Origin: Cafeteria roenbergensis
Taxonomy: Eukaryota > Sar > Bigyra > Bicosoecida > Cafeteriaceae
Direction: 5' to 3'
Length of the DNA stretch: 64,000 nucleotides
Assembly: GCA_008330645.1 (NCBI GenBank)
Contig: VLTN01000030.1
Span: 200,001-264,000 of the forward strand
Part shown: positions 1-64,000 of the stretch, in pieces
How the letters are laid out: every line of letters starts with the position of its first letter
Position numbering within the stretch: the first letter of the stretch is position 1
Program-made: the position numbers and the translations under genes
The notes under the pieces: generated by a model
Told to the model about the DNA's origin: nothing
Databases searched by the model: none
The model's input: the letters and a program-made list of their open reading frames with translations, nothing else

Positions 1-1287
1 GATGTGGTTTTGATGCCGGAGTCGACTCTGCGTCTGGGCCAAGATGCTGACGACGTGGTGGTGGGAGGTGCTGACGACGTCGTGATTCGGGGACGGCAAC
101 GATCAATTGCCAGTCATGAGCACATCATCGCACCAGCGCAGAGTGGCGAAACCGCTCTGTCGGCGCGGCAACGTCAGGCCGTCGCTGCCAGGGAGGTGAC
201 CCCACTCGCACCGATCCAGTCGCCGTCGTCGCCAGCACCACCACCACCAGCAGCAGCACCACCACGAGATACCCAGGCAACACCGTCACAGCAGGCTGCG
301 GCGGCGGCGGCGGCGGCGGCGGCGGCTTCGGCGGCGGCGGCGGCGGCGGCGGCGGCTTCGGGCAGACGACTGAGGCGGAAACGGTCCCGCCAACAGCGAT
401 CCGACGACGACTCCGGGAGCGAAGTGTCTGGTAGAGCTACCGGCTCTGCCAGGGATAGGTCCGGGCTGGGGTCGCTGGGAGCTCAGCGCGCCGGAGCAGG
501 GCGGCCAGCGCGGCCCGTGAGGCCCCGGCGTGCCGGTGGCAGGCACATGTCACCCTCGTCAGCTGACGCCGGTGTGTATGAAGGCAAAGTGGCTCTGCAT
601 GCTGGCAGAGCAGCGTTGCGGCAGCACGCGGTGCATGCGTTTGCAAGGGCGGGTGGCAGCGCGTCAGCTGACCATCAAGACGGCGAGTTCGCTTCACCGG
701 TCGACGAGGAGGAGTCAGACTCCTCCCCTGGAGACAGCAGCTGCAGTGACAGCAGTGGCGCTGAAAGCGATGATGGTCAAAGAGCCGGCAGGAGCGCGGC
801 GGACCCTGACCAGCTGGTGATGTCGTCAGACTCTGATTCAGGGAGGAGTCACTCAGGGCCGATGTCCGATAGCAACGAGGATGCGCAGGAGGGGTCTGAC
901 CCCTCCACGGACTCCGCAGTCTCGAGTGACTCGGAGCCAGCGACGGTTTCCGGCCTCAAGCAACGCAGACGCAAGCCCCAGCGGACGGCGAACAGGAGGA
1001 CGTCAGCGCCCCGGAAGGATCGGGGCAGAGCTGTGCCGTCGGCGCGTGCGGCCGCCAGCTCGCCGCCCCTGCCGCGGCCACGCTCCCACGGTGGGGAGCC
1101 CCGATCACTGGGCGACGCAGCGAGTCGCCGGACGAATCTCGCGTCGCTCTCGCTGCATCGTGCAGGCCCGCCGGCCGGCTCTGCCAACAGGCTCACAACA
1201 GGAGCGGTTTCACTGCTGTCTCTTGGGCAGAGCCATAGGCAGAGCCGCGCATCGCCCTTGGCAGCGGGCACGGCGCGGCCAGCGTGA
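1..1287 (+). CDS. 3' part of a gene for a low-complexity, probably disordered protein (5' end outside window)
   Basis: The frame is open from the first base and ends at TGA 1285-1287, giving 428 residues of an unknown protein. No folded domain is visible. It starts with an acidic/Val stretch, then Pro/Ser-rich sequence, a poly-Ala tract coded by GCG repeats (297-360), a short Arg/Lys cluster that could be a nuclear signal, and Asp/Ser/Glu-rich acidic blocks (about residues 235-320) followed by a basic Ser/Arg/Pro tail. The style matches the tails of the other giant proteins here. The recurring DNA words GGCTCTGCC, GCGAAACCGC and GTCAGCTGAC occur in it. It converges on the kinase gene, with about 350 bp between the stops. 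The function must lie in the missing N-terminal part. Confidence 0.6.
   Translation, partial: DVVLMPESTLRLGQDADDVVVGGADDVVIRGRQRSIASHEHIIAPAQSGETALSARQRQAVAAREVTPLAPIQSPSSPAPPPPAAAPPRDTQATPSQQAAAAAAAAAAASAAAAAAAAASGRRLRRKRSRQQRSDDDSGSEVSGRATGSARDRSGLGSLGAQRAGAGRPARPVRPRRAGGRHMSPSSADAGVYEGKVALHAGRAALRQHAVHAFARAGGSASADHQDGEFASPVDEEESDSSPGDSSCSDSSGAESDDGQRAGRSAADPDQLVMSSDSDSGRSHSGPMSDSNEDAQEGSDPSTDSAVSSDSEPATVSGLKQRRRKPQRTANRRTSAPRKDRGRAVPSARAAASSPPLPRPRSHGGEPRSLGDAASRRTNLASLSLHRAGPPAGSANRLTTGAVSLLSLGQSHRQSRASPLAAGTARPA
297..360. repeat. GCG trinucleotide repeat coding poly-Ala
   Basis: This is two runs of GCG, each closed by GCTTCG, inside the first gene, and they encode two Ala tracts separated by Ser. 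The imperfect TTCG interruption is itself duplicated, which suggests growth by slippage or unequal exchange. Confidence 0.9.
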
Positions 1288-1639: not shown

Positions 1640-4600
1640 TCAATCCTCAGTCATCTGCACCAGCCGCACAAGCGCCGTGACCTCCGAAGCGCGCAGTCCC
1701 GCCAAGGCAGCGTCGGCCTCCGCTGCCGCCTCCGCTGCCGCTGCCGCTGCCGCCTCCACGTCTGCCGCAGCCGCCGCCTTGTCCACTGGCGCACGCTGCG
1801 GCGGGGTCTGTGAGTGCCCCGGAGACGACGACGGCGAAGGGTCCTGCGCGGTTTCAGGACCGTCATTCTCCGGCTCTGCCACTTCTTCAAGCCGCCGCAA
1901 CGCTGCAACGGCTCTCTCAAAGGCTGGCTCGCCAATTCGTCGTCTGAGTCCGGCAACCACATGAGCGGAGCGACGCATGCCTGGGGTCCCTGGCGCGGAG
2001 ACTCCGAGCGACGCGGGGTCGCTCGTTGAGTCATAGTCGCTCCGGGCATGGTCCCGTGGCGACTGGGCTGCAGAGCCGTCCGACGGCTTCACCGGCGACG
2101 CGGCCCCCACACGGGGCGATGCGATCGACCCCATGGAACCTCGCGAAACCGCGTCGGAAGGATTCGGTGATGGCTGCATGGGGCCCTGGCTGGGGTACGA
2201 GGCCGCCTCTCCAGACGGAGCGAACCCTGACGAATCAGCTGCCGCCGGTGCCGCTGCCGCTGCCGCCGGTGCCGGTGCCGCTGCCGGTGCCACAGCCGAT
2301 GCCGCTGCCCCAGACGCAGTCGCTGCCACAGTCGCAGCCGGCGGGTGAGCAACACTCCTCTGGAGACCCTCGGCCGCTTCGAGCAGCTGCTGAGCCCCGC
2401 GGCAGTCGTCAATGGCCTCGCTCAGGGCCCCGACGTCGTCTGACCCGTCGTCTGACCCGTCGTCTGACCCGTTGAGCGACTCGAACTCACCGGACGCGTC
2501 ATGCTGACCGCGAGCAGCACCGTCATCGACGAATTCGTCAATCGCAGCGAGAGACGCACCACTTGACCGGACACCTCCGACTAAGGCACCATCGGCAGAG
2601 CCAGACACCGGCCCTGCCACTACGGTCTCGAGAGGCGCCCCACCCGTGCGCGTCGCCGAGCCAGCCACTGCGCTGGAGGCTGCAGCCCCTGCAGCCGAGC
2701 GACCCCTGCCACTCTCGGGGTCATGTGCAAGGGGCCCTGCATCCCGATCTGCAACTGCAACTGCAACTGCAGCCTGAGCCGCAGAGGGTCCTCGGCGTCG
2801 GGTGCCACGGCGTCGTGACGGCGCTTCAGGAGCAGATGCCGCGCGGTTTCGCAGCAGCGACTCATCCCAGTCGAAACCGACGTCTGCACCGTCATCGGCA
2901 CCGGAGCCCTCACCATAGACCATGCGACGTCCGGAAGGATTTGCGGCAGAGCCGTCGTCCACTTCGTCCCCGCCGTGGGCCGGACCGCTGGACAGATCGT
3001 CCCTGCCAGCGCCGCTGGTTCCGGGGACGGCCTCTCCGAGCTCGACACGGGATCCTTCCGTTTCCGGCTCTGCCGTGTTCCATCTCGCGCCAGTCGCTTG
3101 GGCAAGCAGCTGCAGCGTCGCTCGGAATCCTGCCATAACTCCACGGCGCGCCGACTGCTCTGCTGAGCGACGCACCGAGTCTGTGTCAACGTCGACGTCG
3201 TTGTCCACTTCGCCTCTGTCGCCGCCAACAGCCCCGCCCGGCGTGGTGCTCGCAGCTGCCGCCCGGGGACCGTCCTGGCCAACGGCTCTGCCGCTTCCGG
3301 GCGCTCCGGCTCTGCCGCTTCCGGGCGCTCCGGCTCTGCCGCCTGCGCCCGGCTCTGCCGATGGTGAAACCGCAGATGAAGGGGTTTTGCTGCCGCTGGC
3401 TGCCTTGCGAGCGGTTTCGCGGCCATGGCGCGCCGCAGCGTTGGGGGGTGACAGCAGCTGCGGCGGGGCCGACGTCGGGTCAGTCGTGCTCGCGCGGTTG
3501 CTGTCGCTGCCGTCAGCTGACGGAAGGAGTCCCTCATAGCCCTTCGGCACAACAGTTCCGCCGAACTCGAAACCGCCCTTCTTGGATCCCTGCTTCTTGC
3601 GGTTTCGCCACGGTTTCGCCCCGTCCTCGCCCTTCCTGACAGCGTCGCGTGTCCTGGGGCCAGTCCGCGCGGACGCTGGCCGACGCGGCTCTACCGGGGC
3701 TGGCGTTGAGTGGGGAACGGCACCGGCGTGGCTGCGAGCCGACGTCGGGTCAGCGGTTGCGCCAGTCGCGATGGAGGTCGGCAGAGCTGGGGAGTGCGCT
3801 GACTTGGTCCCAACTGCAACTGCGGGAGGGCCCGCGCGGTTTCGCAGCCGGGGCCCTGTGGCCTTGGAGGAGGGCTTCGGACCGTGCGTGTCCGATGAAT
3901 CTGCTCCACGAGATGCCGGGGTGATTGGCAGCTGAGCCGCTGGTGACCCGGCTGTGCTGGCGAAGGGGTTGCTGGACGGTGACGCGTGCTCCGCCGGAAG
4001 TGACTCGTCGGTGACTGGCTGATGACTTGCAGCAGATGTCCCTGCGGCAGCGCCGCCAGATCCAGATGCAGAGCCCGATCCGACAGAGCTTCTTCGCCCG
4101 GGGCTCTTGTTGGTGCGGCTCGGGCGGTTTCGCCTGAGTCCCTCAACGGTGCCTGCCACCATCTCGAGCGAGTCGGCCAGCTGGGCCAACATCGCGCTGC
4201 TCACGAGAGCGGTCGAAGGACCAACATCGTCGGCGCCAGCGGCAGAGCCGTCCAGAGACTCGCCATCAGCAGCAGCAGCAGCTTCATCGGTATCGCCGGT
4301 TTCACCGGCTTCACCGGTTTCGCGGTCGTCGACGTTGGCATGGACGTCGTCGCAGACGTCGGCTCGAGGCTCTGACGACAGCGTCACCCCCGCTCGCAAT
4401 GCGTGTTCCGGCCGCCGCTGGGCCATAGACGCCTCATGCTGCAGTGACGTCATCCGATGGAGCCGGTAGAGCTCCCCCTGCACTTCGTCACGCTGTTCGT
4501 CCGACGACACACTGCTGTCGTCCTCGTCACCGGCGAAACCGCCCGCTCGCAGAGCGAAACCGCTGCGGGTGTGGCGAGAGTGTGACGCCCGCCCACTCAT

Positions 4601-7600
4601 GCTCGCGCCCGACGGCGCGACCGACTCCCTGCCTGGGGTCACTCCGGTTGCAGTTGAAGCAGCCCCCGGAGAGTCGTGGTGGAAGGGCACCACCCCGACG
4701 AGGCGACTCCGCCTGCGAGGCAGAGCCGAAGCCGGTGACAGCACATCGCCCGGAGACGACGCCGCCGCCGGCGACGACGGGCCCGCCGCCACCGCCGCCG
4801 TGGTCGTCGTCATCGCTGTTGCAGTTGCAGTTGCCGCCACAAGAGTGGCAGCCGAATTGTCGGTGTCAGACGTCGCTGGAGCCGCTGCAGTGACTCCTGC
4901 GGAGGCGTCAGCTGACTCGCCAATCACGCCACCAGCCACCGACGTCTCTCGGCCGCTCGGCTTGCGGACAAACAATCTCCCGGGCTCTGCCCCTCTTGGA
5001 CCTACATCCGGGGATGGAGCGACTTCACTGACCTCTGTTCTCGTCATTCCGACCGAAGTCACCATCATCGCTCTGCCGCCGTCCATCGCGACGGCGGCAG
5101 CACGTGCTCGGCGAACGGCGGCTTCGCGATCGACAGGTGACCACCTTCCGATGGTGCCGTGACTGGGCTGCCACTTCACTGCCGACGACGTGACAGCCCC
5201 TGAAGCCGGTGGGGCAACTGCAACTGAAGACTGGCTGGCAGAGCCCGTGGCGTGCGTTGCACGGGTAGAAGCAGCCGCAGTTGCAGTTGCAGTTGCATTT
5301 GCAGTTGCAGCTGGATGCTTGGCCGCGCTCGCATTGGCAGATGCTGCAGGCGAATCAGCTGACGATGGCGTGCTGTCAGCTGACCGCCGCACCACGATGG
5401 CAAGGGCAGGCATGCCTCGTCGATCGCTGAGCGACGCTGCATCGCTCAGCCGAGACCCTGAATGGCACGACGCTGCCGATGCCGACACCGACGCAGGGCT
5501 AAGAGCACTCTGCCCGGAAGCCGCAGCCCCGCCGTCACCGGAGGCATCACAAGCGCCGCCGCCGCCGCCGCCGCCGCCGTCGCTTCCCCCAACGGCACCC
5601 TCCTTGGCGGTGCTCTCCACGGCCGTGCCCTCCTTGGCGGTGCCGTCCGAGCTGGTGGCTCTGCCGCTCCGGCCTCTGCCAGCGAGGTCCGGGAGCGGTG
5701 CGGGAGCCACTTCGCGCGAAACCGCTGCCGATCCTTCCAGCCCAAGCGCCTGGGCAGCGGCTGCCTCGGCCATGACACGGTGCTGATGGGCAGGTGAAAG
5801 CATGCTGATGGTTGGCTGGCCGGGTGAGCGCCCTCCAGCAAGGTCAGACGACGATCCCTGCCGACGTCCGGGCCGCGCCCTTCCAGCTCTACCCGTCCCA
5901 CTTCGCACTGTAGATCCTCCTTCGGCACCCTCTGGGAAGGATCCATCGCCTCTTTTCGCGGTTTCACGGGATTGCTCGGCGCCCACCATCGGCGTCCAGT
6001 CGACTAGACGGGGCGAAGCGGCCACTGCCTCTGCCAGCCCGGGTCCGACCCCAATCTCGTCCAAGTCATCTCCGCATCCTCTGGTCAAAGATTCATCGCT
6101 GGCCGTTGACCCGCCAACAGATGAAACCGCCTCTGATTCCGAGTCACTCGGCGAATCGACCACCGCGTCGTCAGCCTCGTCGTATCGGCCAATCATTATC
6201 CCGTGCTGGACCGCTGTGGCACTGGAGGTGGATGGCACCTGCGCAGACGCCGAAGCCTGGGCAGAGCCCGTGTCGGCGCTGCCAGCACCACCAGCACCAG
6301 CAGCACCAGCAGCACCAGCACCAGCGCCAGTGGCGGAACCAGCACCAGCCCCCCCCGCACCAGATGCTGCTGCCGTTGCGGCTTCGATCTCACCCGCCAG
6401 CGCGGCAAATCGTTTGGCCGCCCACACCGCCCGTCGCTCCGACCTGGACCTGCCGGCAGAGCTGGAGGAGGTGACAGCTACTTGGGTGGATTGGGGTGAC
6501 TGACGGCTGACTGACGACTGATGGCGGGGAGCGGACGCTGGCATCACGCGCCCGTCAACCAGTGGCGACGAGAGGGCCCTTCCAGGCGGAGACGTTGCCA
6601 GCTGAAACGACGACGACCGAATGTGTAGCGACTGGGGGGCCCTTGAGGGCACTGGCTTGGGGCCCTGCCGCTCATGAGCGGTTTCGCCGGCAGAGCCAGC
6701 GTGAATCGCAGCCCAATCAGCAAGTCCCCCGCCTGCCTCCAGCTCGTCGACGTCGCTGGTTTCACCGCCGACGTCGTCCAACTCCGCATCGAGCTCCGCA
6801 TCCGTGAGCGGGTCAGCTGAAACTGTTGAGAGCGCCCCACCCGGGGCGAGGCGATCCGTCGGCGGCGCATGATGGGGTGACGCTCGGTGGATGGACTGAT
6901 GACTGTCCGGTGACCGTCCACTGTTGCCCCCGAACGCTGTCGTGAACGATGTCGCACGAAGCAGCGATTGACGAACTGCCCTATTCAACGCCACCGACAG
7001 CTCTGCCGAGCGCTCAGCTGACTGCTCCCTCCAAGCCATGAAACCGCTCGGAGACGCCAAGGCAGAGCGACTGCTACCGCGATGATGACTGGCGGGTGAT
7101 GGATGGCGGACTGGGGACTGATGTTGGCATGCAGCCGCTTCCCTCTCCGACTCGTGCGGCGAGTCGTCGCTCGGCTCCGCGGCGGTTTCACGATCGGCGT
7201 CTCTCACAGCGTCTCTCACGGCGTCTGCATGCGAGTGAAGCTCCCTTGCAAGTCGCCGCATCCTTCCAGCCGATGAAACCGTGTCTGCGATTGACGAGCC
7301 GTCGCTCGCAGCCGCAGCCAGCGAATGCCCCGTCCCAACGAAGTGCCTCTGGTCGGCTGTGTAGCTCTGCCCGTCGACGTCCGAACCCACGCTGTCGTCA
7401 TCATGCTCTTCGTCGTCGTTTTCGTCGGCGTCGGCGTCGTCGGCGTACCGATCATCGCAGTCGTCGTCGTCGTCGTCGGCGTTGGCGTCGTCGACGTCGT
7501 CACCAGTGCCAGCTCCTTGGTCGGCAGAGCCGGCTGCCGCGTGATGGCCGAGTGATGTCGCGGTTTCGTCTGCACCCACGATTTGGCGCACTCGTGCGGC

Positions 7601-10600
7601 GAGTGACGGGCGGCCCGCGGCGAAACCGCTGGCAGGCGGGGGGACACCGTCCCCGGCCGTCGCTGCAGGCACCCCGGCGGAGTCGCTCACCACCCCGGCG
7701 GAGTCGCTCACCACCCCGGCGGAGTCGCTCACCACCCCGGCGGAGTCGCTCACCATCCCAGCAGCGCCCGCCGCGGAGCCACAGACGTCGTCGTCGCCAC
7801 CGGCGCCAGCGTCGCCACCGGCGCCATCGTCGCCACCGGCGTCTCTGCCGTCCGTAGCGGCGCTGCTGCCGGAACCCCGCTCAGAGTCGCGCTGCGTCGT
7901 TCTCTCGCCTGGTTCTGCTGACGCGAGAGCGTGTCGCAGCGCGTCGCTCAAAGCAGAGCCGATCCTGCCGGACGACGCGGTCAGCTGACCGCTGTGGGCG
8001 AGGCGATCGCTCGTGCCGTCCTGACTGTGACCAGTGTCGGTAGAGCCCACGGACGGCAGAGCCCGACGGACGTCGGCAGCACGCGGGGCCAGTGGGGGGA
8101 GGGGCGGCGTGGACAGCGGAGACGAAGTGGCAGAGCCAGACATGAGATGATCTTGGGGACCATCATCGCCCGCCGTCCCACGGCCAGTCACCCCGGCATC
8201 ACAGTCGCTCGCAGCGGGCAGCGGCGCAGCTGGGACGTGACCCGCGTAACCGCCTCCCGCCATTGCGATGCCTGCCACCGCTGCGTCGCTGTCATCGGCA
8301 GAGCTGCTGTCGTCGTCGTCATCTGAGCCATGCTTCGAGACCCCACTGCCAGTTTGACGGGCCCATGACAGGGCCCCATCCGTTGCGCCGAGACACGTTC
8401 CCCCGATGGCAGGCAGGCATCCTGAGCCAGGGACCAGCTGACCAGTATCTGACTGGCCTCTGATGGCATCATGATGAGCGCTGGATTGCGTGTCGTCCGC
8501 AGGGCGCAAGGCGCTTGGGGCTTCAGCTGTGGCGGTTGCGGTTGCGGTTGGGGCTGTCCCGTCACCGTTTGGCTGAGTCTTCACTGCAACTGCCGGCGTC
8601 GGCTGCGGTTTCGCGAGTGACCCCATGAGGGCCAGCGCCCTCATCGATCGCTCGCGCGCCAGCAGGTCGGCATCCGTTCCGGTGAGAGTGTTGGTCGCGG
8701 TCCGGCCGCCACGGCGGTGATGGGACCGTGAGCGGGAGCGACTGCGTTCAGCTGACACACCTCCGCCACGATGGCGGCGGCGGGATGGCTGGCGATGCTG
8801 GTCGTGGTGACTGCTGCGGCTGGAGCTCCGGCCGACGTCGCGAGCACTGTCACCGTGGCGGTTTCGCGACCAACGGCCCCGTTGAGGATGTCTGTCAGGA
8901 GTTGAAGCGTCTTCTGATGGAGTCTTGATCTGGGAGTGATGGGTCCGTGACTCGGACCTGACTTGTGAACCGTTGGCACTATCGAGCCCACTGCCGCCGT
9001 CTCCGCTGGGGATACCAGTATCAGGCAGCTCTGCCGCATGCAGTGCGTGGCTCTGCCCGTGCACTTTGCTTTCGACGTCTTGATGACCGTTTCCATGTGC
9101 GGGACCGACCTCTGACGCCACTTCGCCGGTGTCTGACCCGGCATGAAACTCCGCACTGCCACGAACTCCGCTTCTGCTGCTGATTCCAGCCCCGTGTGGG
9201 CCGTCCGGGCGCCGGTGTCGACGACGACGACGACGACGGCGGTGGCGCTGCCGCCGACTGCTGCCGCTGCCGCTGCCGCTGCGGCTGCCGCTATCACTAC
9301 CGCTGCCGCTATCGCTACCGCAAGCGCTGCCGCTGCGGCTGCGGCTGCCGCTGTTTGGTGCGAAACCGCCGCCACCTGTTCGCCCAGCGCCTGAACCGCC
9401 TTCCGATGTGCTGCCGTCGTCCCCGCCGCCGCCGCCGCCACCACCGCCGCCGTGGCTGCCGCCGCCGTCGCTGTTGCTGCTGCTGCTGCCTGCTTTGAAG
9501 ACGTCGTCGTCGACCACCACTCCGCTCACCTCGAAGGCTCTACCTGACTCGGCAAATCCTTCCGGAAGTGAAGTTGCTGGACTTGCAACCGCACCGGGGC
9601 TCTGCCGCGCCCAGTCCGCAGGCAACCCAGCCTGCCTGCTGATTGCTGGCTGACTGCCTCCTGACGGACCGCTGATGTGCCCACCAGCTGCGGCGGAGGC
9701 TGTCGCGCCCGCGGCCGCTGGCCACGCCGCCCTGTGCCCCGCCGATCGCTTGGCCGTCAGCGGGCGGGGGCCTGGCGGCGGGGGCGGAGGCGACGCTTGC
9801 AGCGCCCGTTGCGACGGCGAAACCGCGAGCGCAACCTCTGATCCTGCCGGCGGAGTCGTGCCTGCAGCCGTTGCTGCAGATGACGCAACCTGTCCCATCA
9901 CGGCGACTGCACGTGCCGCCAGCTCCGCGCCCTCGTCTGACCCCTCCCTGTGGTCAGACCCTTCCCTGTGGTCAGACCCCTCCGCGTGGTCAGACGCGCG
10001 GCCTGCTCCACCGGCGGCAGCACCGACGTTCAACGCACCGGCTCCAACGTGATCTGCGGATGGAGACGCAGAGTCAGTGGCGCCACCGTCTTGACGGGCG
10101 TTGCCAGCGCCAGCCGCGAAACCGCCCGGGTGACCGCCACTCTTTTGGTCGACAGCCGGTGACAGAGCCAGGCCGGACGAAAACGCTCCGGCAGGCCGAC
10201 CGAGTCGGCGAAACAAATGGCCGGGAGGTGGAAGAGCGGATTTGGCACGCTGGTGGTGATGTCTCCTTGACCCGCCAGTGACGTCGCCGCCAGCAGACGT
10301 GTCGCGCGAGTCTCGTCCTGACCCGGAGCTGCTGCGCTCAGGCCGGCTCCGAGTTTCCGTTGCACCGGCTCTCAAGGGTCCGACCCTCCTTCCGCGAGCA
10401 GGAGGTGCCACTCCGTGTCGCTGATGATGGTCCATGCCGCCCAGGTCATCGTCGTGCGGCGTCGTGCCAGGAGGCGCTGATGACCTGGACGTGATGGACC
10501 GGTGACGGGCAGAGCCGCTGGCATCGCGGTCGCGCCTTCGCACGCCCGGCGGAGCAGCAGGGGACCCCCCACGGGGCCCTCGTGGTTGCAGTTGCGGTTG

Positions 10601-14112: not shown

Positions 14113-14169
14113 CTCGCTTTGCCGGCTGGCGGAAGAGTGCAGTCGCGTTGCCCTGGCCCGGCAATTCTC

Positions 14170-14229
14170 GAATATTAGCGCGATGTCAAACATGGCCTCC
14201 GCCGCTCCCTGCGCCGATATTAGAGCGCC
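14170..14229. promoter_or_regulatory. Paired ATATTAG motifs before the secreted-protein gene
   Basis: ATATTAGCGC and ATATTAGAGCGC lie 58-117 bp upstream of ATG 14112. They are the only AT-rich words in the nearby sequence and resemble the motif before the kinase gene. A role as core promoter elements is inference. Confidence 0.35.
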
Positions 14230-17367: not shown

Positions 17368-17371
17368 CTGC

Positions 17372-54513: not shown

Positions 54514-54965
54514 GCGTCACACCAGTGCGGATGCCAGGAGCGCGTCGCCTTGCGTGCAGCTGCCTGTGTCGACGACAAAGGCTCCCGCCGGGGCAGCGGC
54601 GGGTTGTGCGCGGGAAATTCGCGGCCGACGGCTTGCGACGGCTCTGCCGACGGCAGCCGTGCGGTCCGACGCAGCAGCCACAAGGACGCCAGCAGGCCGA
54701 TGGGACACCCCGCGCGTGCAAGCTTGGCAAGGCCGCTCCGGATGCATCGCGGCCTGCCGCGACCCATGCCCGAGACTGCGCGCGCCGAGTCCACAAGCAG
54801 GCAGAGTCGTGGAAAGGCTTGGGAATTGCGCGTAGGCCATCTCGCAGCCTCGCAAGCACAATTATGCAGCATTGGTGCCACGCAAACCACGTGTGCGGAA
54901 CCCCTGCAGGACCAGCAGGGCCCGCAAGGCCCCTCGCCGCAGCGCGGGCAAGTGCCAGCCCGCCG
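54514..54965. other. Intergenic region upstream of the JMJD5/KDM8-type gene
   Basis: About 450 bp. GGCTCTGCC occurs at about 54640, and an AT island GCATAATTGTGC (minus) near 54855-54866 may be promoter. No gene is supported. Confidence 0.5.
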
Positions 54966-57815
54966 TCAGCTCTGCCGGAGCTGCGCTCGGACTGCCCTTG
55001 CAGCCTGCCGCACCGCCATTAGCGCCGGAGCAGCGTCCCATCCAGCCGGAAGCCGGCCAGTTCCCGCCCAGGCCCCGCCCAGCTCGTCACTGGCGCCACC
55101 ACTGCCGCTTATGCCGCTGCCACCGCCGATGCCGCCGCTGCCACCGCTGATGCCGCTGCCACCGCCGATGCCGCCGCTGCCACCGCCGATGCCGCCGCTG
55201 CCACCGCTGATGCCGCTGCCACCGCCGATGCCGCCGCTGCCACCGCTGATGCCGCTGCCACCGCCGATGCCGCTGCCACCGCCGATGCCGCTGCCACCGC
55301 CGATGCCGCCGCTGCCACCGCTGATGCCGCTGCCACCGCCGATGCCGCCGCTGCCACCGCTGATGCCGCTGCCACCGCCGATGCCGCTGCCACCGCCGAT
55401 GCCGCTGCCACCGCCGATGCCGCTGCCACCGCCGATGCCGCTGCCACCGCCGATGCCGCCGCTGCCGCCGCTGCCGCCGCTGCCAGGCTGGAGCTTGCCC
55501 TGCGGGTTCAGCAGCCAGTCATGATGAAGGTCCTCCAGCAGAGCCATGCCAGTGACTCCGCCCACAGGGTCCCTCGCATCCCTGCCGGGGCCAGTCCCCG
55601 CTCCTCCCCGCCCTGCAGCCCCCCCGGCCCCCGCCGCAGCCCCCCCGGCAGCCCCCGCCGCAGACGCATGACTCAGCATCGCGAGCCATCGCTCCAGCGC
55701 CCACAGGGACATGAGCGACTCCTCCACAACTGCAGCTCTGCCGGCAGAGCCGTATGAGCGACACCCAGCCTCCCACAGACCCGCGGACGCAGTCCTCTCC
55801 GGGACGGTGACCAGCACTTCCGGAAGCTCGCGAACCAGCGGGCTAACGGTTCCCCCGTAGGTGGTTGTGAGCCACCGATGCCCCTGCCCGCCGCACAGGT
55901 CAGCGACGCGGGGCGGAACCAGCGGGGACCCTGACCGAACCGCGGCTGCAGGCTGCGGCCGCAGCAGGCTCTGCACGGCTCTGCCACCGGCTCTCTCGAA
56001 TTGGCTCTGCCAGCTCTGCCGGGAACCGGCGTCGCCCTCCTCCGTCGGGTCAGTCGGCGGGTCAGTCGGCTGGCCGGGGCTGCGAGGCATCCAGTCGACG
56101 GCCGATCCGGCGCCTTCGCGCTCCCCCTGCTGCAACGGATACCTGTCAAGGTGCGAGCGGTGGCAGGCGGCGTGGACCAACACTCCGCGCGCTCCCACCC
56201 GCTGGGCGGACTCGGCTGTGATGGTGGTGGGGCCGGCAACGCCCACCAGCGGCAGAGCTCGCGATGCCAGCTCTGCTGCGATCGACCAAGCCCATTCCAT
56301 GGGACGGGACCCGCCCCCAGGGAGCGACGCTTCGTCGCTCACCGCCATAACAAAGTCGGCTCCGAGTCCCGCAGCCGTCAGCGACGCCAGCGATGCCAGC
56401 GACCCGGGGCCCCCCTGGGGCCCCACAGCGCCCCCCCCGGGCAGCGACACCACCCGAAGCGTCGCTCTTATACCGTGCTGCACCAGAAGCGGCGAAACAA
56501 TTCGCCGATGAAACGCCTCGGCCAGGCACGCGATGAACGGACGATCCCCAAGCGACCCCGAGGCACGCACGCCGTGGTCTCTGGCCGAGTCACTGGACCC
56601 CACAGCCCAAGCCACCCGCACAGCGGACAGCCAGTCACCCAGCGTGCGAGGCTGCATCGCCACCACCCTGCTGCTGCTGCTGCTGCTGCTGCCCACGGCG
56701 GAGCCGACGCCGGCAGAGCCGCGCCCTTGCCGGCCGAGCGACGCCGCCGTCGGCCAGTAGAGCCAGCCCGAGACGTCGTCAGCTGACGGAGCGCCGGCGG
56801 CCGCAGGGCGCGCCCAAAACGAGTCTGACTCCGCAACGGCAACGACCACCATCAGGTCCATCACGCGGAAATCAGACTCCGTGCTCGCGCTGTGACTGCC
56901 CTGTGCAGCGGGGTCGGCCCGAAGTGGCAGAGCCGATGCGCTGAAGGCAGAGCCATTTCTTGGAGCAGATCTGGCGCTTCCAGTGAGAGCCGCTCCAGTG
57001 TCAACGTCCCGGATGAGTGACTCCAACAGCGTGGCAAGCAGCGGGATGCGAAGCGGGTCGAGGGGGGAGGAGGACGTCGGCAGGGGACCCTTGCGAGGGC
57101 CGCCGGCAGGGCCCCCCTCGGACGGGCTCAAGCGGCGGGCAGCTGCCCGGCGCGTTCCAAGGCCTGATGCAGCAGCCGCCTCGGACGGCGGGGCTGCCGC
57201 CCCTCGCGCTGGCGCGGATGACGGCGGGCGGGATTTCAAGCGGGCGTGTGGTGCGGCTCTGCCGAGCGACCACGGCCCCACGGCCGACACGGCAAGCGCG
57301 AACGTCGGCCGATCGCAGCCGTGCAGGGCCCGCTGCAGCGATGCCCCGCGGCGGAGGTGGTTGACGAGGGCCTCGGCAGAGCAGGCCGCGATGCGGCGGC
57401 CGCAGCCGCTTTGGCCCAACCCGGCGCCGGTGCTAGCCCCCGGCCCTCCGCACGCGGCCGCGCGGTCGGAGGCATGACCGGGATCGGGCCGCTGGGCAGC
57501 CTCGTGCGGGTGCGGGCGGGGGGCCTGCGTGCTGCGGGCAATTTCAGCAGCCGCCGCCGCCGCGAGCCTCTCCGGCTGCACGAACAGGAGGGACTCGCAG
57601 GCGCGGTCCTCCCACCACTGCTGCTGCGCCGGTGTGCGGGAAATGCCCAGAAGGGACTGGCAGGCGGCCGAGACGGCGGCGGCGTTCACCCCTGAGGCTG
57701 CAAACGGCGGCACACCCTCTGACCGCAGCGACAAGAAGGTCGCCGACAGCCGCAGGGCCGTCAGGGCGCCCGCCGCGGCTGCCAGGCCCAGAGCCATGCC
57801 CCGCGTGGCGCACAT
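54966..57815 (-). CDS. Unknown protein with N-terminal hydrophobic segment and Gly/Ser/Ile repeat tail
   Basis: A 949-residue protein from ATG 57815 (a second ATG at 57797 is equally possible). Residues 7-30 (MALGLAAAAGALTALRLSATFL) form a signal peptide or anchor, so it probably enters the secretory route. The middle has folded-looking stretches: ADFVMAVSDEASLPGGG near 480, ALPLVGVAGPTTITAESAQR near 520, and HRWLTTTYGGTVSPLVRELP near 650. These are separated by Pro/Ser/Ala-rich linkers. Residues about 776-909 are a Gly-Gly-Ser-Gly-Ile repeat, and a short ordinary C-terminus follows. I recognise no family. Words GGCTCTGCC and GTCAGCTGAC occur in the linkers. Confidence 0.6.
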   Translation of the reverse strand: MCATRGMALGLAAAAGALTALRLSATFLSLRSEGVPPFAASGVNAAAVSAACQSLLGISRTPAQQQWWEDRACESLLFVQPERLAAAAAAEIARSTQAPRPHPHEAAQRPDPGHASDRAAACGGPGASTGAGLGQSGCGRRIAACSAEALVNHLRRGASLQRALHGCDRPTFALAVSAVGPWSLGRAAPHARLKSRPPSSAPARGAAAPPSEAAAASGLGTRRAAARRLSPSEGGPAGGPRKGPLPTSSSPLDPLRIPLLATLLESLIRDVDTGAALTGSARSAPRNGSAFSASALPLRADPAAQGSHSASTESDFRVMDLMVVVAVAESDSFWARPAAAGAPSADDVSGWLYWPTAASLGRQGRGSAGVGSAVGSSSSSSSRVVAMQPRTLGDWLSAVRVAWAVGSSDSARDHGVRASGSLGDRPFIACLAEAFHRRIVSPLLVQHGIRATLRVVSLPGGGAVGPQGGPGSLASLASLTAAGLGADFVMAVSDEASLPGGGSRPMEWAWSIAAELASRALPLVGVAGPTTITAESAQRVGARGVLVHAACHRSHLDRYPLQQGEREGAGSAVDWMPRSPGQPTDPPTDPTEEGDAGSRQSWQSQFERAGGRAVQSLLRPQPAAAVRSGSPLVPPRVADLCGGQGHRWLTTTYGGTVSPLVRELPEVLVTVPERTASAGLWEAGCRSYGSAGRAAVVEESLMSLWALERWLAMLSHASAAGAAGGAAAGAGGAAGRGGAGTGPGRDARDPVGGVTGMALLEDLHHDWLLNPQGKLQPGSGGSGGSGGIGGGSGIGGGSGIGGGSGIGGGSGIGGGSGISGGSGGIGGGSGISGGSGGIGGGSGIGGGSGIGGGSGISGGSGGIGGGSGISGGSGGIGGGSGGIGGGSGISGGSGGIGGGSGISGSGGASDELGGAWAGTGRLPAGWDAAPALMAVRQAARAVRAQLRQS
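55109..55470. repeat. Minisatellite of 18-bp units (CCACCGCCGATGCCGCTG and variants)
   Basis: About twenty units built from CCACCGCCGATGCCGCTG and CCACCGCTGATGCCGCTG with interspersed GCCGCTGCC. They form higher-order blocks and code Gly-Ile-(Ser/Gly)-Gly-Gly-Ser. The block pattern repeats, showing amplification of composite units. Confidence 0.9.
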
Positions 57816-58843
57816 GTGCCCACTCGCCGCGCGCGGCCGTGAGCCCCGGGCCCGACTGCCTTCGCGAGTGGTGAGTTTTGTTTGTTTGCAGGTCTGCTTC
57901 TCGCCGACTTGCGCTCCGACTCAGGGCTCGACTAGGGACAATCTGCGCGACTATGGTGCGCCAATTCGGCCGTTTGCCAAGCGCGACAACAAGAGCGCCG
58001 CCCCCTCCCCAAGCCAACCGCGGGCAGCTCGGCGCCAAGTCCAACGTCCCGCCTGCCCGATCGCGGCCGCTGCTTGGATGCCTCCACGGGGCTGGCTTTT
58101 TCCTCGCGGCGCGCTGGAGTCAGCGGGGCGGGGCTGGTTCGCGCTGCTGCCGCAAATCTGCAGCGGGTCAATCGTCGCTGACTCCCGCTGCCGGCGCGGC
58201 TTCCGGCTTGGCGTCCCCCCCCCCGCCTTGCGCCCCGTGCACCCCTTCGCCGCGCTTGCGCGTGTGTCGTCGACCCCCGTGCGCCGCTCTGGTCGCGTGG
58301 CCGTTGGCATCGCGACGTCGCCAGGCACTCCGAACGCACCAGTCGCGTGCCTTGCCTGCGCGGCCGGGGCTCTGCCGACCGCGGGATCGACCAGGGGGAG
58401 CTCCAAGCCCGATTGAATGCGACGGCCGCAAAAGAAGCCTCGCAGCTCCGACGGCATTGCCCCTTGCCAGCGCCCGCCCCTCGCGCCGGAGGACCGCAGC
58501 GGCTGCCCCATCGGCCCGCGCAACCGCCTGCGGAGCGCGGGTCCCGCGGGGCGCGCCGCTGCGGACGCCTCGTCACGGGGCCTGCGCCGCGACCGGCCGA
58601 GTAGGGAAGGGGAGCTGGCGAACGGCAGCGGCGGCTCTGCCGGCCAGCCGACTTGAGGGTTGTCGCTGCAGAGTCGGGCCAACGGGTTGGTCAAAGCCGG
58701 CGCTACTCTCGGCCCCTTCCACAGCCGACACTGCGCCGTTCTTCGACCTCGGGACGGCCCTAGCGCTGCACGGACGCACGCTGCAGCCGCCAACACCGCG
58801 CCTAGGGTGGCGGGCCCGCTCGTAGGCTGGGTTCGGAGGAGCG
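57816..58843. other. Divergent intergenic region
   Basis: About 1 kb between the 949-residue protein gene and the receptor gene. GTGAGTTTTGTTTGTTTGCAG at 57871-57891 has donor and acceptor consensus 21 bp apart but is too short for a normal intron. GGCTCTGCC occurs at about 58372 and 58630. No gene is supported. Confidence 0.5.
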
Positions 58844-61800
58844 ATGCCGCGCAGCGGCGAGACGGCTGCATCGACCAAGGGTCAATGGCTCGCGTCCCTG
58901 GCCCGGGACGACCAGCGCCCACCCGCGCCCACCCGGGCAGCTGGGGGCTGGCGGGACGGATCGGGATCGGGCGGGGCGGGGGACCGCGACACCAAGCAGG
59001 CTGCGCCGGGGGGAGGGGCGCAGCCCGGCGAGGCCGGGCCTGTCGCCGGCCGTCGGGACTCGAGCGCGCGCGTCGCTCCCATGCCCGGAGCCAAAGGCGG
59101 CGACGATGCGGCGCTGCCGCTCAGGAGGCTCTCGGGCGCCTCTGGGGACGCCCTGGGCGAGGGCGAGGGCTCTTGGCGGCGCCGCTGCTGCCGGTGTCGC
59201 TGTAGCAAAAGCGTTTCCGCCAAGCAAGGAGCGGTGAGCGACGCGGACGGACCCAACCGCGGCACCTACGACGAAGACGACGAGGAGGCGGACTCCAGTT
59301 CGGCGGGCGGCGCCGAGTCCCATGAGCTGGGCGCTGTCTGCGACCGGTTTGTGTGCCTCATCGTGCTGGTGGCGGCGCTCGTGCCCTTCCTCTGCATGGC
59401 GTTTGTCGTGGCCAGCGGCCTCTCGACGCAAGCGCTCCTCCGCGAATCCACGACGGCCCGCGTTGCCGAAATCCTGACGGACACGGTCGTGTCCAGCTTC
59501 AACAGCGCGCTCTCGGGCACGGTGGTGGACGTGACGCTCAGGCTCGCGCAGGCCGCCGAGGCTGGCAACCTCACCACCTTGCACGACCAGGGCGCGACCC
59601 TCAGCCACCGCAGGCACGAGCCGCCACACTTTGCGCGCGTGGACGCCATCAACTACCTCAGCACGACAGCGGGCGCAGTGCCAAAGGCCCGCTTGGCCCA
59701 GATCGCCTTCGTTGACGGGTCGTTCATGGCCGTTGGGTACCTGGACAGCGAGAGCTTCACGAACGTGCCTTCGGGGTGGACGGGCGGGCTGGCGTACCTG
59801 CAGCGCCCAGCGGACGAGTCGGGCTTCCCGGGGGTGGGAACCGTCACCGCCTACGCCCCCGAGCTCGCGGTGGAGGCGGGCGAGGCAGCGAGGACGAACA
59901 CCTCGTCACTGCTCCCTGCGTCCATCGCCACGCGCGAAAACTTTGACCCGCGGGACGAGCTCTGGTACCGCCTCGCCATGCGCGCGGCCAGGGAGCTCAA
60001 CGACGCGGTGGAGGGAGGCGCCGAGGGTGTCGCTCACGGGGTGAGCGACGAGGTGGTCTGGACCCCCATCGCCAACCTGTCCTTCGCCCAGATCGCCCCC
60101 GACGGCAGGGTCATTCACGTCGGCACCACGGCCTCAACGGCTCTCAGAAACCCAACCACCGGCGAGGTCATCGGGGTGCTCTGCATGGACGTCGGCGCGG
60201 AGGACGCCCTTGCCGGCACGCTGCACGACCTGGCCAAGCGGCTCTACCGACTCCGCACCCGCACCCACCTGTCCCTGGTAGAGCCGTACTCCAAGTGCAC
60301 AGTGGCCTCGTCAGTCACGCGCCAGGTGTTCTTGCCGCTCGACTCGGGGACCTGTTCCGACGTCCACGGGGCCCTGTTGGTCGGGGCCCCTCTGGACCAC
60401 GTCACTGGCATCGCCATCGAGGCGTCGCGCCGCCTCATCGCCGCCGCCAACGCTTCGGCGGCAGAGCTGGATCCCATCGATCGCAGGGCGTTCCGCACCG
60501 CCTACAACCTGAGCGACTCCAACCAGGTTCCCTTCGACATCGCTCTGCCGTCGGTGTTCGGCGTGTTGGGGCCCGCGATGCAGGACACGAGCGCGGTGGT
60601 TGGAGACGTGGAAAATTCCAGGAACGCTCTCTTGCGATCGACCAAGCAGGATCTCGTTGAGGAGCCGTACTCGCTCGACACAGAGCTCAAGGGCCCGGAC
60701 GCGGTCGCCGTCGCCGACAGGCACGTGATCCCCAACGCGGCTCTGTACGGGGAGACGTCCTATGGGGTGATCAACGCGTTTCTGCAGCTGCCGCCGCTGT
60801 CCACTATGATGTTGGTCATTGCGATCGACGAGCGGGACCTGGGCAAGTACGCAGGTCTCCCCGCCACCATCACCTCGGGCGCCATCGCCGTCGTGCTGTC
60901 GATGCTGGTGTCGGTGGCCCTCGTCGTCCTCGGCGTCAGGCGAACCCGCGCCAAGCTCCGGGCAATATTTGCAGGGGACGATGATTCGAACGAACGGTCG
61001 GGGGAGGAGGGGGACGGCGACGCCGGGGCAGGGACGGGGCGAAACCGCTGCGGCGACTGCTGCGACTGCTGCGAGGGATGCTGCCACTCTCGGCTGATCC
61101 GCGGCAACTGCGCCTGCTGCCTGAGGGCATGCCTTGCGTGCCGGCGTCTCGACGTCTGTGGCTGTGCGTACGTAAACCACCTAGGGGAGATGGATCTGGA
61201 CGAGGCTGACCTGGAGGCAGCGACCGCGCTCCGCCAGCGCAGAGCCAGGCTCGGGGGACACGCTGGCTCTGCCGGCAGAGCCAGGTTCGGCGGCGGGGGC
61301 AGGCGTGGTGGCGGCGGCGGCGCTTACAAGAGCACCCGGGCGCTAGGCGACTCCAGGGCGGGTGGCAAGGCTAGCGGGGGCGCTTCCCGTCTGCAGAGCC
61401 AGCTGGGTGGGGAGTCGAGCGACTCTGACCAGGAGATGGATGTGATTCTGAGCGATCTCGTGTCGCCAGACGCGATCGATGCGGGCACAGCTCCCGTCGC
61501 GATGGCGCTTCGGTTGCTCTCCAAGATGAAGCGACGCCTGCCTCTCGACCGAGAGACGCGCCGGTACGTCTCTCGGCTAACGGATCTCATGAAACGAGCG
61601 GGTGACGGTGCCTACATGCCAGCAGCCTTCGAGGACGTGATTGGCAACGGACACGACCTCGGGGGCGGTTTCGCGGGAGGAGGCGGAGGGGGAGGGTCCA
61701 CTCTCAACGGCGGCTCAAACTTGGGCCGGCGCGGGCAACCGTCGGAGAGTGGCAGGGTCAGGGGCAGGGTCGGGAGCGAGGGCCCCGGCGCCGACGGCGG

Positions 61801-64000
61801 GGGCCCTTCCAGCCGTGACAGGCACACCCGCGACGACGCATCAACAATGGCCTCCAGCAAAGGCACTGTGCGCCACACGCTTGGATCGAGCGGGTTTCCG
61901 CCCCCGGCGGTGGGGTCGGTTGTGCTTCCGGTGGGCGGCGCCCGGAGTGTTGGCCACCGGACAGCCGGCTCTGCCGGGGGGAAATTCACCGCGGGGCCGC
62001 TGGATATGGCGTCTCCGCCTGGGGCCGAGGATGCAAAGCTCGCGAAACCGCCCTCGTTCTTCGTGCCGACGTCGGGAGCCGGCGACATGTCGGGAAACCC
62101 CCAGGGTCAGACCCCGCCAGGCCACTCAAGAGCGGTCACCATCGGGTCACCGGATCAAGCGGCGCGGCAGGTAGCAGCAGCAGCGGCCCGTGGCAGCGGC
62201 GAGGCGGCGGCGGTCGGGCCAGCGGGGTCGGCAGCTGCCGGTGGCTCGCCGCGCGACGAGGGGTCACTTCCTAGGACGCAGGGCGACGGGTCATCGTCCA
62301 ATCACGCGGCAGGGCGGGGTCTGGGCCGGGCGCTGACGCGGGCTGCATCAACGGCGGTTAATTCCGCCGACGTGACTCGGTCGATGTTGGCTACCACTCT
62401 TGCTCCGCGCATGCTGACGATCAGAGCCCACCGCCACGCTGCCGCTGGCGGCATCGCTCGCCGGCAGTCGCTGGCTTCCAGTCGTCCGTCCATCATCAAC
62501 GGGTCAGATTCTGTGACCAGCGGCAACGCGCGAGGAGCCAGCGGGTTCCAGCCGGGCGATGGAGTTGAAGTTGCAGTTGCAGTTTCAGCTGGTGACCAGG
62601 ACAAGTCCCCTGCGGCGTGGACGGCGAAGCGAGACTCCGCCGACGTCACTGACAACCCCTCAACGGGCGTTGTTGGGGGTCCCCGCCGAAGAGTGGCAGG
62701 CTCACCGGCTCCATCGGGCGCAAGGGCTGCCCACGTGAGGGCCAGCCCCTCCGGCGCCCCAGGGGGGCGGCCGCTCGCGCCGAGGGCCGGTAAGTCCGTT
62801 AGGCTGCTGGAGACGCTCGACGAAGCTGCCTCTGCCGCAGCCATGTCTCGCACCACCAGCGGCGACGGAACCACCACGGGGGAACAATTCGCCGATGAAG
62901 CTGACGATGTCACCGCGACACGAAACCGCGGAGTCGCGTCAAGTGACAGCGGGGATGAAGGCGGACAGCAGAGTGGCAGCGCCGGTGCTGGCGCTGGTGC
63001 TGGCGCTGGCGGCGTCGACATGACTGGTGACGTCACAATGGTTGAGAGCACTCTCGATGGCGACGTCGATCTGGAAGGATTGTGGTCCCGTCACCTGTCG
63101 GTGGATGACGTCATGTCGTCGTATCTGCCTCCGGCGCTGTGCTGCGCAGTGAGAGACGCCACATCGCTCAGCGCCCCGGCCTATCTGTTCACACCGGCTC
63201 TATTGGCTGCCAGCCAACGTATTCAAGAGTGGCTGAGGCAGGGAGCGGCTGTCACTCGGGCGGAGGAACTTTCTTTCGACCAGGAGTGTGGAGCCAAGCT
63301 GGCAGCGCTCGATGCCGTCCTGACTGCCTCGCAATGCGCCGTTGATGGCAGCGTGATTCGCGGTGACAGGTCGGAACGGATGCTGATGCTCGGCGACACT
63401 GGGCCCATCACCTTCCAGTCAGGAACCAGTCTTACCGGGGGCGGCAACAGCAGCAGCGGTGGCGGTGGTGGTGGCGGTGTTGGCTTGCGTGCCGGCAGCG
63501 GAAACGGCAGCGGAAGCACAGTGACCCCGCTCGGGGTCACTGGTCCCGGCGGGGGATGGAGGTCCAAGCAGCCCCTGGGCGCGAAAGGCAGGGGCTCTTC
63601 GAAGCTGCTGGTGCTGGGCGGCCTGCCTGCCGCGGGCCTGGCCCGCTCTCCCGTTCGAAGTGGCTCTACCAGGACGAAGAGTGGTCGGGACATTGCGCGG
63701 GGAACGAGCGCGTCGGACCTCCTCGCCTCGGCATCAGAGGCCACGGAGGGCGATGATGATGGGGAGGTGATTGGCGACGGCCGAGTTGCGGGTGACAGCA
63801 TCGACGGCATGAGGGTCGAGCCTGCCTCCGCCTCTGCAAACTCCGCAGATATGGCGGAAGTGCAGGGGGGCGTAAACACAACTGCAACCGCCGCCGACGT
63901 CTTGACCGCCGCCGCCGACTCTGTGGGCGAGTCGCGGCCCGGTCACCAGCGGGTCACATCGTCTTCGTCGTCAATCGCCGGCCTCGCGACAGCAGAGGCC
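58844..64000 (+). CDS. Two-pass membrane receptor with dCache-like ectodomain; effector domain beyond the right edge
   Basis: ATG 58844 follows an in-frame TAG at 58823; the frame is open to the last base (1,719 codons, no stop). A cytosolic leader with a basic Cys patch (RRRCCRCRCSK) and an acidic stretch precedes membrane segment 1 (about 171-192). The ~480-residue ectodomain starts with a long helix and contains NPTTGEVIGVLCMDVG, typical of dCache sensor domains that bind small ligands. Membrane segment 2 (about 676-700) is followed by a Cys-rich cluster (CGDCCDCCEGCCH ... CACCLRAC). Then VAMALRLLSKMKRRLPLDRE ... MPAAF (about 883-932) recalls the helical segment before the catalytic domain of cyclic-nucleotide phosphodiesterases. 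A receptor phosphodiesterase is therefore possible but unproven. The rest is disordered and rich in the recurring words. Confidence 0.7.
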   Translation, partial: MPRSGETAASTKGQWLASLARDDQRPPAPTRAAGGWRDGSGSGGAGDRDTKQAAPGGGAQPGEAGPVAGRRDSSARVAPMPGAKGGDDAALPLRRLSGASGDALGEGEGSWRRRCCRCRCSKSVSAKQGAVSDADGPNRGTYDEDDEEADSSSAGGAESHELGAVCDRFVCLIVLVAALVPFLCMAFVVASGLSTQALLRESTTARVAEILTDTVVSSFNSALSGTVVDVTLRLAQAAEAGNLTTLHDQGATLSHRRHEPPHFARVDAINYLSTTAGAVPKARLAQIAFVDGSFMAVGYLDSESFTNVPSGWTGGLAYLQRPADESGFPGVGTVTAYAPELAVEAGEAARTNTSSLLPASIATRENFDPRDELWYRLAMRAARELNDAVEGGAEGVAHGVSDEVVWTPIANLSFAQIAPDGRVIHVGTTASTALRNPTTGEVIGVLCMDVGAEDALAGTLHDLAKRLYRLRTRTHLSLVEPYSKCTVASSVTRQVFLPLDSGTCSDVHGALLVGAPLDHVTGIAIEASRRLIAAANASAAELDPIDRRAFRTAYNLSDSNQVPFDIALPSVFGVLGPAMQDTSAVVGDVENSRNALLRSTKQDLVEEPYSLDTELKGPDAVAVADRHVIPNAALYGETSYGVINAFLQLPPLSTMMLVIAIDERDLGKYAGLPATITSGAIAVVLSMLVSVALVVLGVRRTRAKLRAIFAGDDDSNERSGEEGDGDAGAGTGRNRCGDCCDCCEGCCHSRLIRGNCACCLRACLACRRLDVCGCAYVNHLGEMDLDEADLEAATALRQRRARLGGHAGSAGRARFGGGGRRGGGGGAYKSTRALGDSRAGGKASGGASRLQSQLGGESSDSDQEMDVILSDLVSPDAIDAGTAPVAMALRLLSKMKRRLPLDRETRRYVSRLTDLMKRAGDGAYMPAAFEDVIGNGHDLGGGFAGGGGGGGSTLNGGSNLGRRGQPSESGRVRGRVGSEGPGADGGGPSSRDRHTRDDASTMASSKGTVRHTLGSSGFPPPAVGSVVLPVGGARSVGHRTAGSAGGKFTAGPLDMASPPGAEDAKLAKPPSFFVPTSGAGDMSGNPQGQTPPGHSRAVTIGSPDQAARQVAAAAARGSGEAAAVGPAGSAAAGGSPRDEGSLPRTQGDGSSSNHAAGRGLGRALTRAASTAVNSADVTRSMLATTLAPRMLTIRAHRHAAAGGIARRQSLASSRPSIINGSDSVTSGNARGASGFQPGDGVEVAVAVSAGDQDKSPAAWTAKRDSADVTDNPSTGVVGGPRRRVAGSPAPSGARAAHVRASPSGAPGGRPLAPRAGKSVRLLETLDEAASAAAMSRTTSGDGTTTGEQFADEADDVTATRNRGVASSDSGDEGGQQSGSAGAGAGAGAGGVDMTGDVTMVESTLDGDVDLEGLWSRHLSVDDVMSSYLPPALCCAVRDATSLSAPAYLFTPALLAASQRIQEWLRQGAAVTRAEELSFDQECGAKLAALDAVLTASQCAVDGSVIRGDRSERMLMLGDTGPITFQSGTSLTGGGNSSSGGGGGGGVGLRAGSGNGSGSTVTPLGVTGPGGGWRSKQPLGAKGRGSSKLLVLGGLPAAGLARSPVRSGSTRTKSGRDIARGTSASDLLASASEATEGDDDGEVIGDGRVAGDSIDGMRVEPASASANSADMAEVQGGVNTTATAADVLTAAADSVGESRPGHQRVTSSSSSIAGLATAEA

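Follow-up and report, generated by a model that had tools for sequence, protein, structure and literature searches.

Short exact DNA words recur in the coding sequence of a eukaryotic genome and may be kept by a weak force acting on the complete word

The stretch of DNA analysed here, referred to as the window, comprises 64 kb (contig 30, positions 200,001–264,000) of a genome of 36.3 Mb in 167 contigs. Eukaryotic markers (MCM2 with its MCM2-type winged helix, and a fragment of a eukaryotic topoisomerase I) are found in the sampled loci. The MCM2, which is encoded in one frame, matches PDB chains taken to be animal MCM2 more strongly (837–823 bits) than those taken to be yeast MCM2 (764). The mean GC content of the 20 loci sampled is 70.2%; 70.3% is reported for Fonticula alba (PMC10752896), which makes that species a candidate on GC content but does not identify the organism. 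The window has 50 open reading frames (ORFs) of at least 250 amino acids, of which 14 were chosen by hand for the coding analysis; ORFs are used as a proxy for genes, and some of them may not be genes. The main features, which include a protein kinase gene with a tail of about 3,100 residues, a word-dense ORF of 4,384 codons and a TPR gene, are listed in Table 1. The repeats of the TPR gene seem to be near-identical in DNA, and AGGGACAT occurs 13 times there, on one strand and in one frame; 12-mers such as GGGGAGTACGAT occur 12–14 times each in the window. The two ORFs of exactly 721 amino acids have a GC3 of 0.93, versus 0.67 and 0.65 in the large word-rich ORFs of 3,638 and 4,384 codons, and contain no copy of eight words that were counted.

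Table 1. Features of the window and positions of the exact copies of the two main words
Feature	Position in window	Strand	Remarks
ORF	4–1287	+	4 GGCAGAGCC, 1 GCGAAACCGC
Protein kinase ORF, 3,638 codons	1640–12556	-	Pkinase, E 8.9e-57; 23 GGCAGAGCC, 17 GCGAAACCGC
CAGCACCAGCACC-type array	6,282–6,363		Matches in many other contigs at 76–96% identity
Pkinase domain, residues 222–490	11,087–11,893	-	Domain match, E 8.9e-57
Word-poor stretch (internal control): TPR gene, two 721-codon ORFs and neighbours	12501–32500		1 of 75 GGCAGAGCC, 0 of 33 GCGAAACCGC
TPR gene	18,050–22,480 (frame)		TPR domains found
ORF, 721 aa	23,393–25,558
ORF, 721 aa	27,602–29,767
Word-dense ORF, 4,384 codons	32008–45162	-	29 GGCAGAGCC, 10 GCGAAACCGC; GC by codon position 0.71/0.66/0.65
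ORF, 1,165 codons	48649–52146	-	2 GGCAGAGCC, 2 GCGAAACCGC
ORF, 949 codons	54966–57815	-	7 GGCAGAGCC, 0 GCGAAACCGC
GGCAGAGCC, 41 copies	1226–61282	+	First bases 1226 1238 1361 1387 2594 2945 4241 4719 5237 6260 6689 7523 8055 8129 10508 15526 34118 35383 36302 37355 37600 38995 40573 40603 40633 40718 40838 40855 40864 41185 43660 43866 44589 44678 48143 50149 55743 56712 56926 56946 61274
GGCAGAGCC, 34 copies (GGCTCTGCC on the + strand)	442–61975	-	First + strand bases 442 1177 1872 3066 3284 3308 3332 3351 4983 5657 9049 9598 10805 11078 33233 33823 37557 37660 37844 40209 43087 43324 43552 43579 43951 49190 54640 55977 56003 57255 58368 58633 61265 61967
GCGAAACCGC, 16 copies	146–62051	+	First bases 146 2143 4533 4554 5716 7620 9360 9817 10116 10735 36352 37917 42299 48891 61039 62042
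GCGAAACCGC, 17 copies	2843–61674	-	First bases 2843 3411 3599 3836 4124 6678 8605 8858 34733 37336 38350 38816 39255 42956 43031 50072 61665

Two short words stand out in this window. There are 75 exact copies of GGCAGAGCC/GGCTCTGCC, for which an order-3 Markov model of the window predicts 4.6, or 2.0 if the words are masked from the background. GCGAAACCGC/GCGGTTTCGC is present in 33 exact copies, against 0.6 expected, or 0.26 with the words masked, and the 8-mer GAAACCGC occurs 57 times. The first-pass annotation, which had counted some 70–80 copies of the first word by hand and some 60 of the second with its close variants, and had seen words on both strands (41/34 for GGCAGAGCC), was therefore accurate on these points. 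The window is a dense region: GGCAGAGCC occurs 1.17 times per kb, versus 0.30 genome-wide, about four times the genome mean.

Copies of GGCAGAGCC and GCGAAACCGC number 29 and 18 in positions 1–12,500, 29 and 10 in 32,501–45,200, and 16 and 5 in 45,201–64,000, and the near-absence of words reported for the TPR array holds for the whole stretch in between (Table 1). The tail of the kinase gene is dense in words, as had been claimed, and neither word begins anywhere within the kinase domain; the closest copy (11,078–11,086) abuts the end of the domain. The 949-codon ORF has seven copies of the first word and none of the second. The earlier description of the words as scattered through disordered coding regions was, however, overstated: their correlation with a composition-based disorder index is slight when the window is included (rho 0.06) and absent in the other loci (rho 0.006, not significant). 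Sequence outside ORFs of 300 codons shows no concentration of words: it makes up 13% of bases, is GC-poorer than the rest and has 16 of 230 GGYAGAGCY and 2 of 101 YGAAACCGY copies. Outside every ORF of 200 codons, a space of only 8.1 kb, there are two copies of GGCAGAGCC, still 9.5-fold over expectation.

The possibility that the words are a by-product of codon usage, of low-complexity protein composition or of context-dependent mutation has to be considered in a GC-rich genome with many triplet repeats, all the more as the copies are dense within long ORFs with little codon-position bias. Most copies are removed by synonymous shuffles. In the 14 window ORFs, GGCAGAGCC occurs 68 times, against 3.67 after shuffling of synonymous codons and 1.74 after shuffling of codon order, and GCGAAACCGC 31 times, against 1.02 and 0.23, respectively. 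The same holds for 46 ORFs from outside the window that are 500 or more codons long, with 59 copies of GGCAGAGCC versus 8.93 and 19 of GCGAAACCGC versus 0.75 after synonymous shuffling. The disappearance of the enrichment against a codon-matched background, which the first-pass annotation had named as a refutation, was thus not seen. The words also keep the highest ranks when simple repeats are masked, and a mutation bias should lift one-letter deviations from the words too, whereas those in the core are near background (see below). This explanation is already largely refuted, and we consider it very improbable.

Both main words use all six reading frames, inside and outside the window, but they do so unevenly. 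In the window, GGCAGAGCC is read as GGC-AGA-GCC 17 times, at offset +1 seven times and at offset +2 eight times; on the opposite strand, it is read as GGC-TCT-GCC 25 times, at offset +2 nine times and at offset +1, the Leu-Cys frame, only twice (four times outside the window). TCAGCTGA is in one frame in 15 of 16 copies, and one of its two remaining frames is a stop. The frame neutrality initially proposed is, thus, real but partial, and is filtered by the protein: the words are not confined to one frame, but some frames are rare. Strand symmetry and the use of all frames bear out the proposal that it is the DNA, rather than the protein, that is held constant. Pairs of words are spaced with a mild preference modulo 3 (219/147/166), which fits shared reading frames.

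Five word-rich frames show the effect on the protein. They contain 60 Gly-Ser-Ala tripeptides, against 32.6 expected from composition, and 25 of these tripeptides (42%, versus 1.7% expected) are spelled by the exact word, the other 35 being about as many as expected. For Gly-Arg-Ala, there are 34 occurrences against 21.5, with 15 spelled by the word and 19 by other sequences. The surplus of both tripeptides, thus, consists of word-spelled copies, indicating that words were added on top of ordinary protein content rather than recoded from it, and that the DNA drives the protein. The excess of the words and its DNA-level nature are observed directly in these counts.

The excess extends to the whole genome, for which each word pattern was compared with a mirror control (the same pattern read backwards, which is of equal composition and provides an approximate expectation). 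There are 10,998 copies of GGCAGAGCC versus 994 of its control, equally divided between strands (5,553/5,445), and 2,499 of GCGAAACCGC versus 249 (1,248/1,251). Two further words, GTCAGCTGA (1,195 versus 213, 5.6-fold) and TGAGAGACGC (521 versus 82, 6.4-fold), behave similarly, so all four words tested genome-wide, which were picked as the top of the local enrichment list, exceed their controls, and the term "vocabulary" used in the first description is apt. These four, with variants of GGCAGAGCC and GCGAAACCGC, head the list of a greedy word search in 284 kb, which comprised the window, two flanks and 20 loci at round coordinates and in which simple repeats and duplicated 18-mers had been masked. 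The same search yielded GGGTCTGACC, GAGCGACGC/TGAGCGAY and GGAAGGAT as further candidates, which are denser in the window than elsewhere. GGCAGAGCC and GCGAAACCGC cluster together in 2-kb bins (rho 0.52 for all data, 0.32 outside the window) and along contig 1, in 20-kb bins over its first 1.22 Mb (rho 0.44, p 4e-4, counting only + copies of GGCAGAGCC); in the latter bins, one-off control words did not significantly track the two words (rho 0.19 and 0.16), and GTCAGCTGA and TGAGAGACGC were uncorrelated with them (rho 0.07, p 0.61; rho 0.12, p 0.34). On contigs 1–3, 60 of 97 pairs of adjacent GCGAAACCGC sites share a strand (p 0.033 when sites are shuffled within contigs), a weak hint of runs of one orientation.

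Alignment of the sites shows how far the recognisable sequence extends. Sites of GGCAGAGCC carry information between -1 and +9 (YGGYAGAGCYR) and those of the second word at about 10 positions (GYGAAACCGY), with little more than background beyond, so that copies share little sequence past about 11 bp. We define the core as positions 2 and 4–7 of GGCAGAGCC and positions 3–9 of GCGAAACCGC. In the window, the exact words exceed expectation 37-fold (GGCAGAGCC) and 127-fold (GCGAAACCGC), whereas forms with one deviation in the core stand at 0.94-fold and 1.86-fold (13 versus 7.0), respectively, and those with two at 1.07 and 1.04; the 1.86-fold value for GCGAAACCGC is an exception to the sharpness of the core. 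In the 20 further loci, the exact words are 10.2- and 26.9-fold enriched and their core one-off forms 1.12- and 1.09-fold. Genome-wide, one-off forms were counted at one core position of each word, picked after it had been seen to be near expectation: position 5 of GGCAGAGCC (GGCANAGCC) gives 13,110 - 10,998 = 2,112 forms versus 2,865 - 994 = 1,871 for the control, and position 6 of GCGAAACCGC (GCGAANCCGC) gives 3,872 - 2,499 = 1,373 versus 1,478 - 249 = 1,229. The outer positions are more permissive. At positions 1, 3 and 9 of GGCAGAGCC, other letters are tolerated at 2- to 10-fold overall, with T at position 3 or 9 reaching 9.5- to 9.8-fold and A or T at position 1 about 5-fold; position 8, which lies outside the defined core, accepts G at 2.3-fold (32 versus 13.7). 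For GCGAAACCGC, T is tolerated at position 2 (30-fold) and at position 10 (15-fold). The core is, thus, sharp, and recognition is graded at the edges.

The excess of exact words, together with flat core one-off forms, favours a weak force acting at the DNA level on the complete word. We consider it fairly probable that the words are recognition sequences kept by such a force, and not by one acting on the protein; the data agree less well with decaying insertions, with a mutation bias, with hairpins or with graded factor sites. Each copy would originate by point mutation from ordinary sequence, and a completed word would be retained slightly more often than its neighbours. This could occur because a putative sequence-specific protein, whether binding, methylating or directing repair, favours the word copy in repair or gene conversion, or because the loss of a site carries a small fitness cost. 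At mutation-drift balance, the exact word would be multiplied by e^S, with one-off forms remaining at background. The ratios observed would then correspond to a scaled advantage S of about 2.2–2.3 genome-wide (2.3 for GGCAGAGCC, 2.2 for GCGAAACCGC) and about 3.7–4.2 in the window (3.7 and 4.2). The formula has been applied to uptake sequences, with a 2Nes of about 4, in an earlier study (PMC2397512). Where protein function forbids the letters, as in the kinase domain and the TPR array, words would be absent or nearly so, and in long tolerant ORFs they would accumulate, so that the protein gains the residues they encode. The existence of several words would point to several putative readers, or to one reader with several targets. 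The recombination, repair or chromatin signal suggested in the first-pass annotation may be close to this reading. Some observations count against it: the weak strand clustering of GCGAAACCGC is not predicted by a strand-blind force, tolerance would predict a link between words and the disorder index outside the window, and the two main words show no correlation with GTCAGCTGA and TGAGAGACGC along contig 1.

One alternative is that the words are placed in tolerant sites by an enzyme or by templated repair. In favour of this are the thousands of exact copies, the residues that the words add on top of the expected number (Gly-Ser-Ala and Gly-Arg-Ala) and local runs, such as the four GGCAGAGCC copies on the - strand at 3,284–3,359. 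However, direct matches of 2–6 bases in the flanks, the mark of target-site duplication, differ little from control in the six word forms compared, flank sharing beyond about 11 bp is slight, and the insertion of a whole 10-bp word would shift the reading frame. Word copies, thus, lack the extended shared sequence and target-site duplication of transposon-derived or MITE-like elements. If steady insertion were followed by neutral decay, there should, by our derivation, be about one-eighth to one-ninth as many one-off forms per position as exact copies, or about 1,320 for GGCAGAGCC and about 268 for GCGAAACCGC. GGCAGAGCC exceeds its control by 241 such forms, a strong argument against decaying insertions, and GCGAAACCGC by 144, which is only about two-fold below the prediction and a mild one. 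A recent burst of insertion would also look sharp. The earlier suggestion of a mobile or copy-pasted system is, therefore, less well supported, and we consider it quite unlikely.

Sites for several transcription factors, lying within genes and maintained by regulatory selection, would account for the presence of several unrelated words with degenerate end positions, for the full dyad of GTCAGCTGAC and the complementary ends of the two main words, and for the palindrome TGACGTCA, with 22 strand matches versus 9.3 expected. Transcription-factor sites inside eukaryotic exons have degenerate ends, dyads and several different words, all of which are shared by the words described here; these differ in having a sharp core, with one-off forms near background and gradation only at outer positions, and about 500 to 11,000 exact copies per word. 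CAGCTG (538 versus 558 expected), CACGTG (142 versus 170) and TGACTCA (12 versus 13), which we take to be sites of transcription-factor families, are not enriched, and no concentration of words was seen outside ORFs or, as far as ORF limits and the 8.1 kb outside every ORF of 200 codons can show, near promoters. We consider regulatory sites of this kind unlikely, though less so than insertion. A signal at the RNA level or in a hairpin, such as a splicing enhancer, a structured RNA or a short stem-loop, has very little chance of being the explanation. GGCAGAGCC and GCGAAACCGC are non-palindromic and only partly dyad, with complementary ends of 3 bp; four-base inverted repeats with spacers of 0–9 range from -3% to +22% relative to control, with the maximum at a one-base spacer, and palindromic 8-mers as a class show a small excess (1,991 versus 1,774 expected). 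Such values are modest, and other words of the same hairpin pattern (counting those with at least four copies) are at most 2.6-fold enriched for GGC-NNN-GCC, versus 15.8 for GGCAGAGCC, and at most about 5-fold for GCG-NNNN-CGC, versus 51 for GCGAAACCGC. GGCAGAGCC is, moreover, equally frequent on the sense and antisense strands of its frames (32 versus 36). The spacing of the words shows no helical phasing.

Exact words iterated throughout a genome are best known from bacteria, and their cause is debated even there. HIP1 of cyanobacteria (GCGATCGC) is described in PMC4390886 as a short exact word found about once per kb, of debated function, in which one-letter deviations concentrate at the outer positions and for which a methyltransferase-directed repair bias has been proposed; HIPs are palindromic and bacterial, a genome usually has a single main HIP, and a cognate methyltransferase is generally present as well (PMC4390886). 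The words in this genome resemble HIP1 in the copy density of GGCAGAGCC in the window, in the very high genome-wide copy number of GGCAGAGCC and GCGAAACCGC on both strands and in the bias of deviations towards word ends, with the exception of T at position 3 of GGCAGAGCC. Unlike HIP1, the main words are only partly dyad, several of them coexist and the genome is eukaryotic. The uptake sequences of Neisseria and Pasteurellaceae show no orientation bias, lie in tolerant parts of genes and have an exact form favoured over one-off forms, with a 2Nes of about 4 (PMC2397512); another source (PMC1939737) reports that their over-representation is graded with mismatch and that they exceed the expected frequency in non-coding DNA. 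The words share with these sequences the lack of orientation bias, the advantage of the exact form over one-off forms and a scaled advantage of similar size. They are absent from the kinase domain and nearly so from 12,501–32,500, as a placement in tolerant gene parts would predict, yet they are unlinked to the disorder index elsewhere, contrary to that prediction. Unlike uptake sequences, core forms are near background here, with only the outer positions graded, and the words are not concentrated outside ORFs. This likeness implies no uptake machinery. On the features tested, the words seem to work like HIP1 or uptake sequences and are members of neither family.

Among the titles and abstract openings listed from the open-access literature, none reported such a vocabulary in a eukaryote; over-represented eukaryotic oligonucleotides are discussed in general terms in PMC1939737. 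It is conceivable, although we would regard it as rather doubtful, that a eukaryotic nuclear genome uses sharply recognised words in tolerant coding DNA as signals of self-identity or for repair or recombination. Such a set would be the counterpart, in many words, of HIP1 or uptake sequences, and would shape the protein as a by-product. If this were true, it would provide a case of a eukaryote with several iterated words at similar strength that visibly dictate amino acids in long ORFs, and would mean that forces at the DNA level can write protein sequence. It would also be a natural setting for separating the effects of selection, of biased repair and of copying.

The words are patchy on a large scale. 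At least 30 of the 100 strand matches of GTCAGCTGA listed, which reach as far as contig 7, lie within 219 kb of contig 5 (663,596–882,136), a strong regional cluster. In the first 1.22 Mb of contig 1, + copies of GGCAGAGCC are dense at 0–300 kb, with only three at 360–610 kb, a patchiness at the scale of domains. Eight viral contigs have both main words within 30 bases, each with only one or two copies of each word in the stored stretch, probably by chance. Searches of the genome with window positions 4,001–9,000 (40 of 140 candidates scored) and 36,000–41,500 (40 of 53 scored) returned, besides the query, only matches of about 30–110 bp at 74–97% identity, and no duplicated tail showing gain or loss of words among the candidates scored. 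Most matches to the former segment stem from two stretches, which are CAGCACCAG- and GTCGTCGTC-type arrays. Short-period tandem repeats are also abundant directly before the window: 5,091 of the 10,000 bases of contig 30, positions 190,001–200,000, were masked as such, far more than in any other of the 23 stretches filtered.
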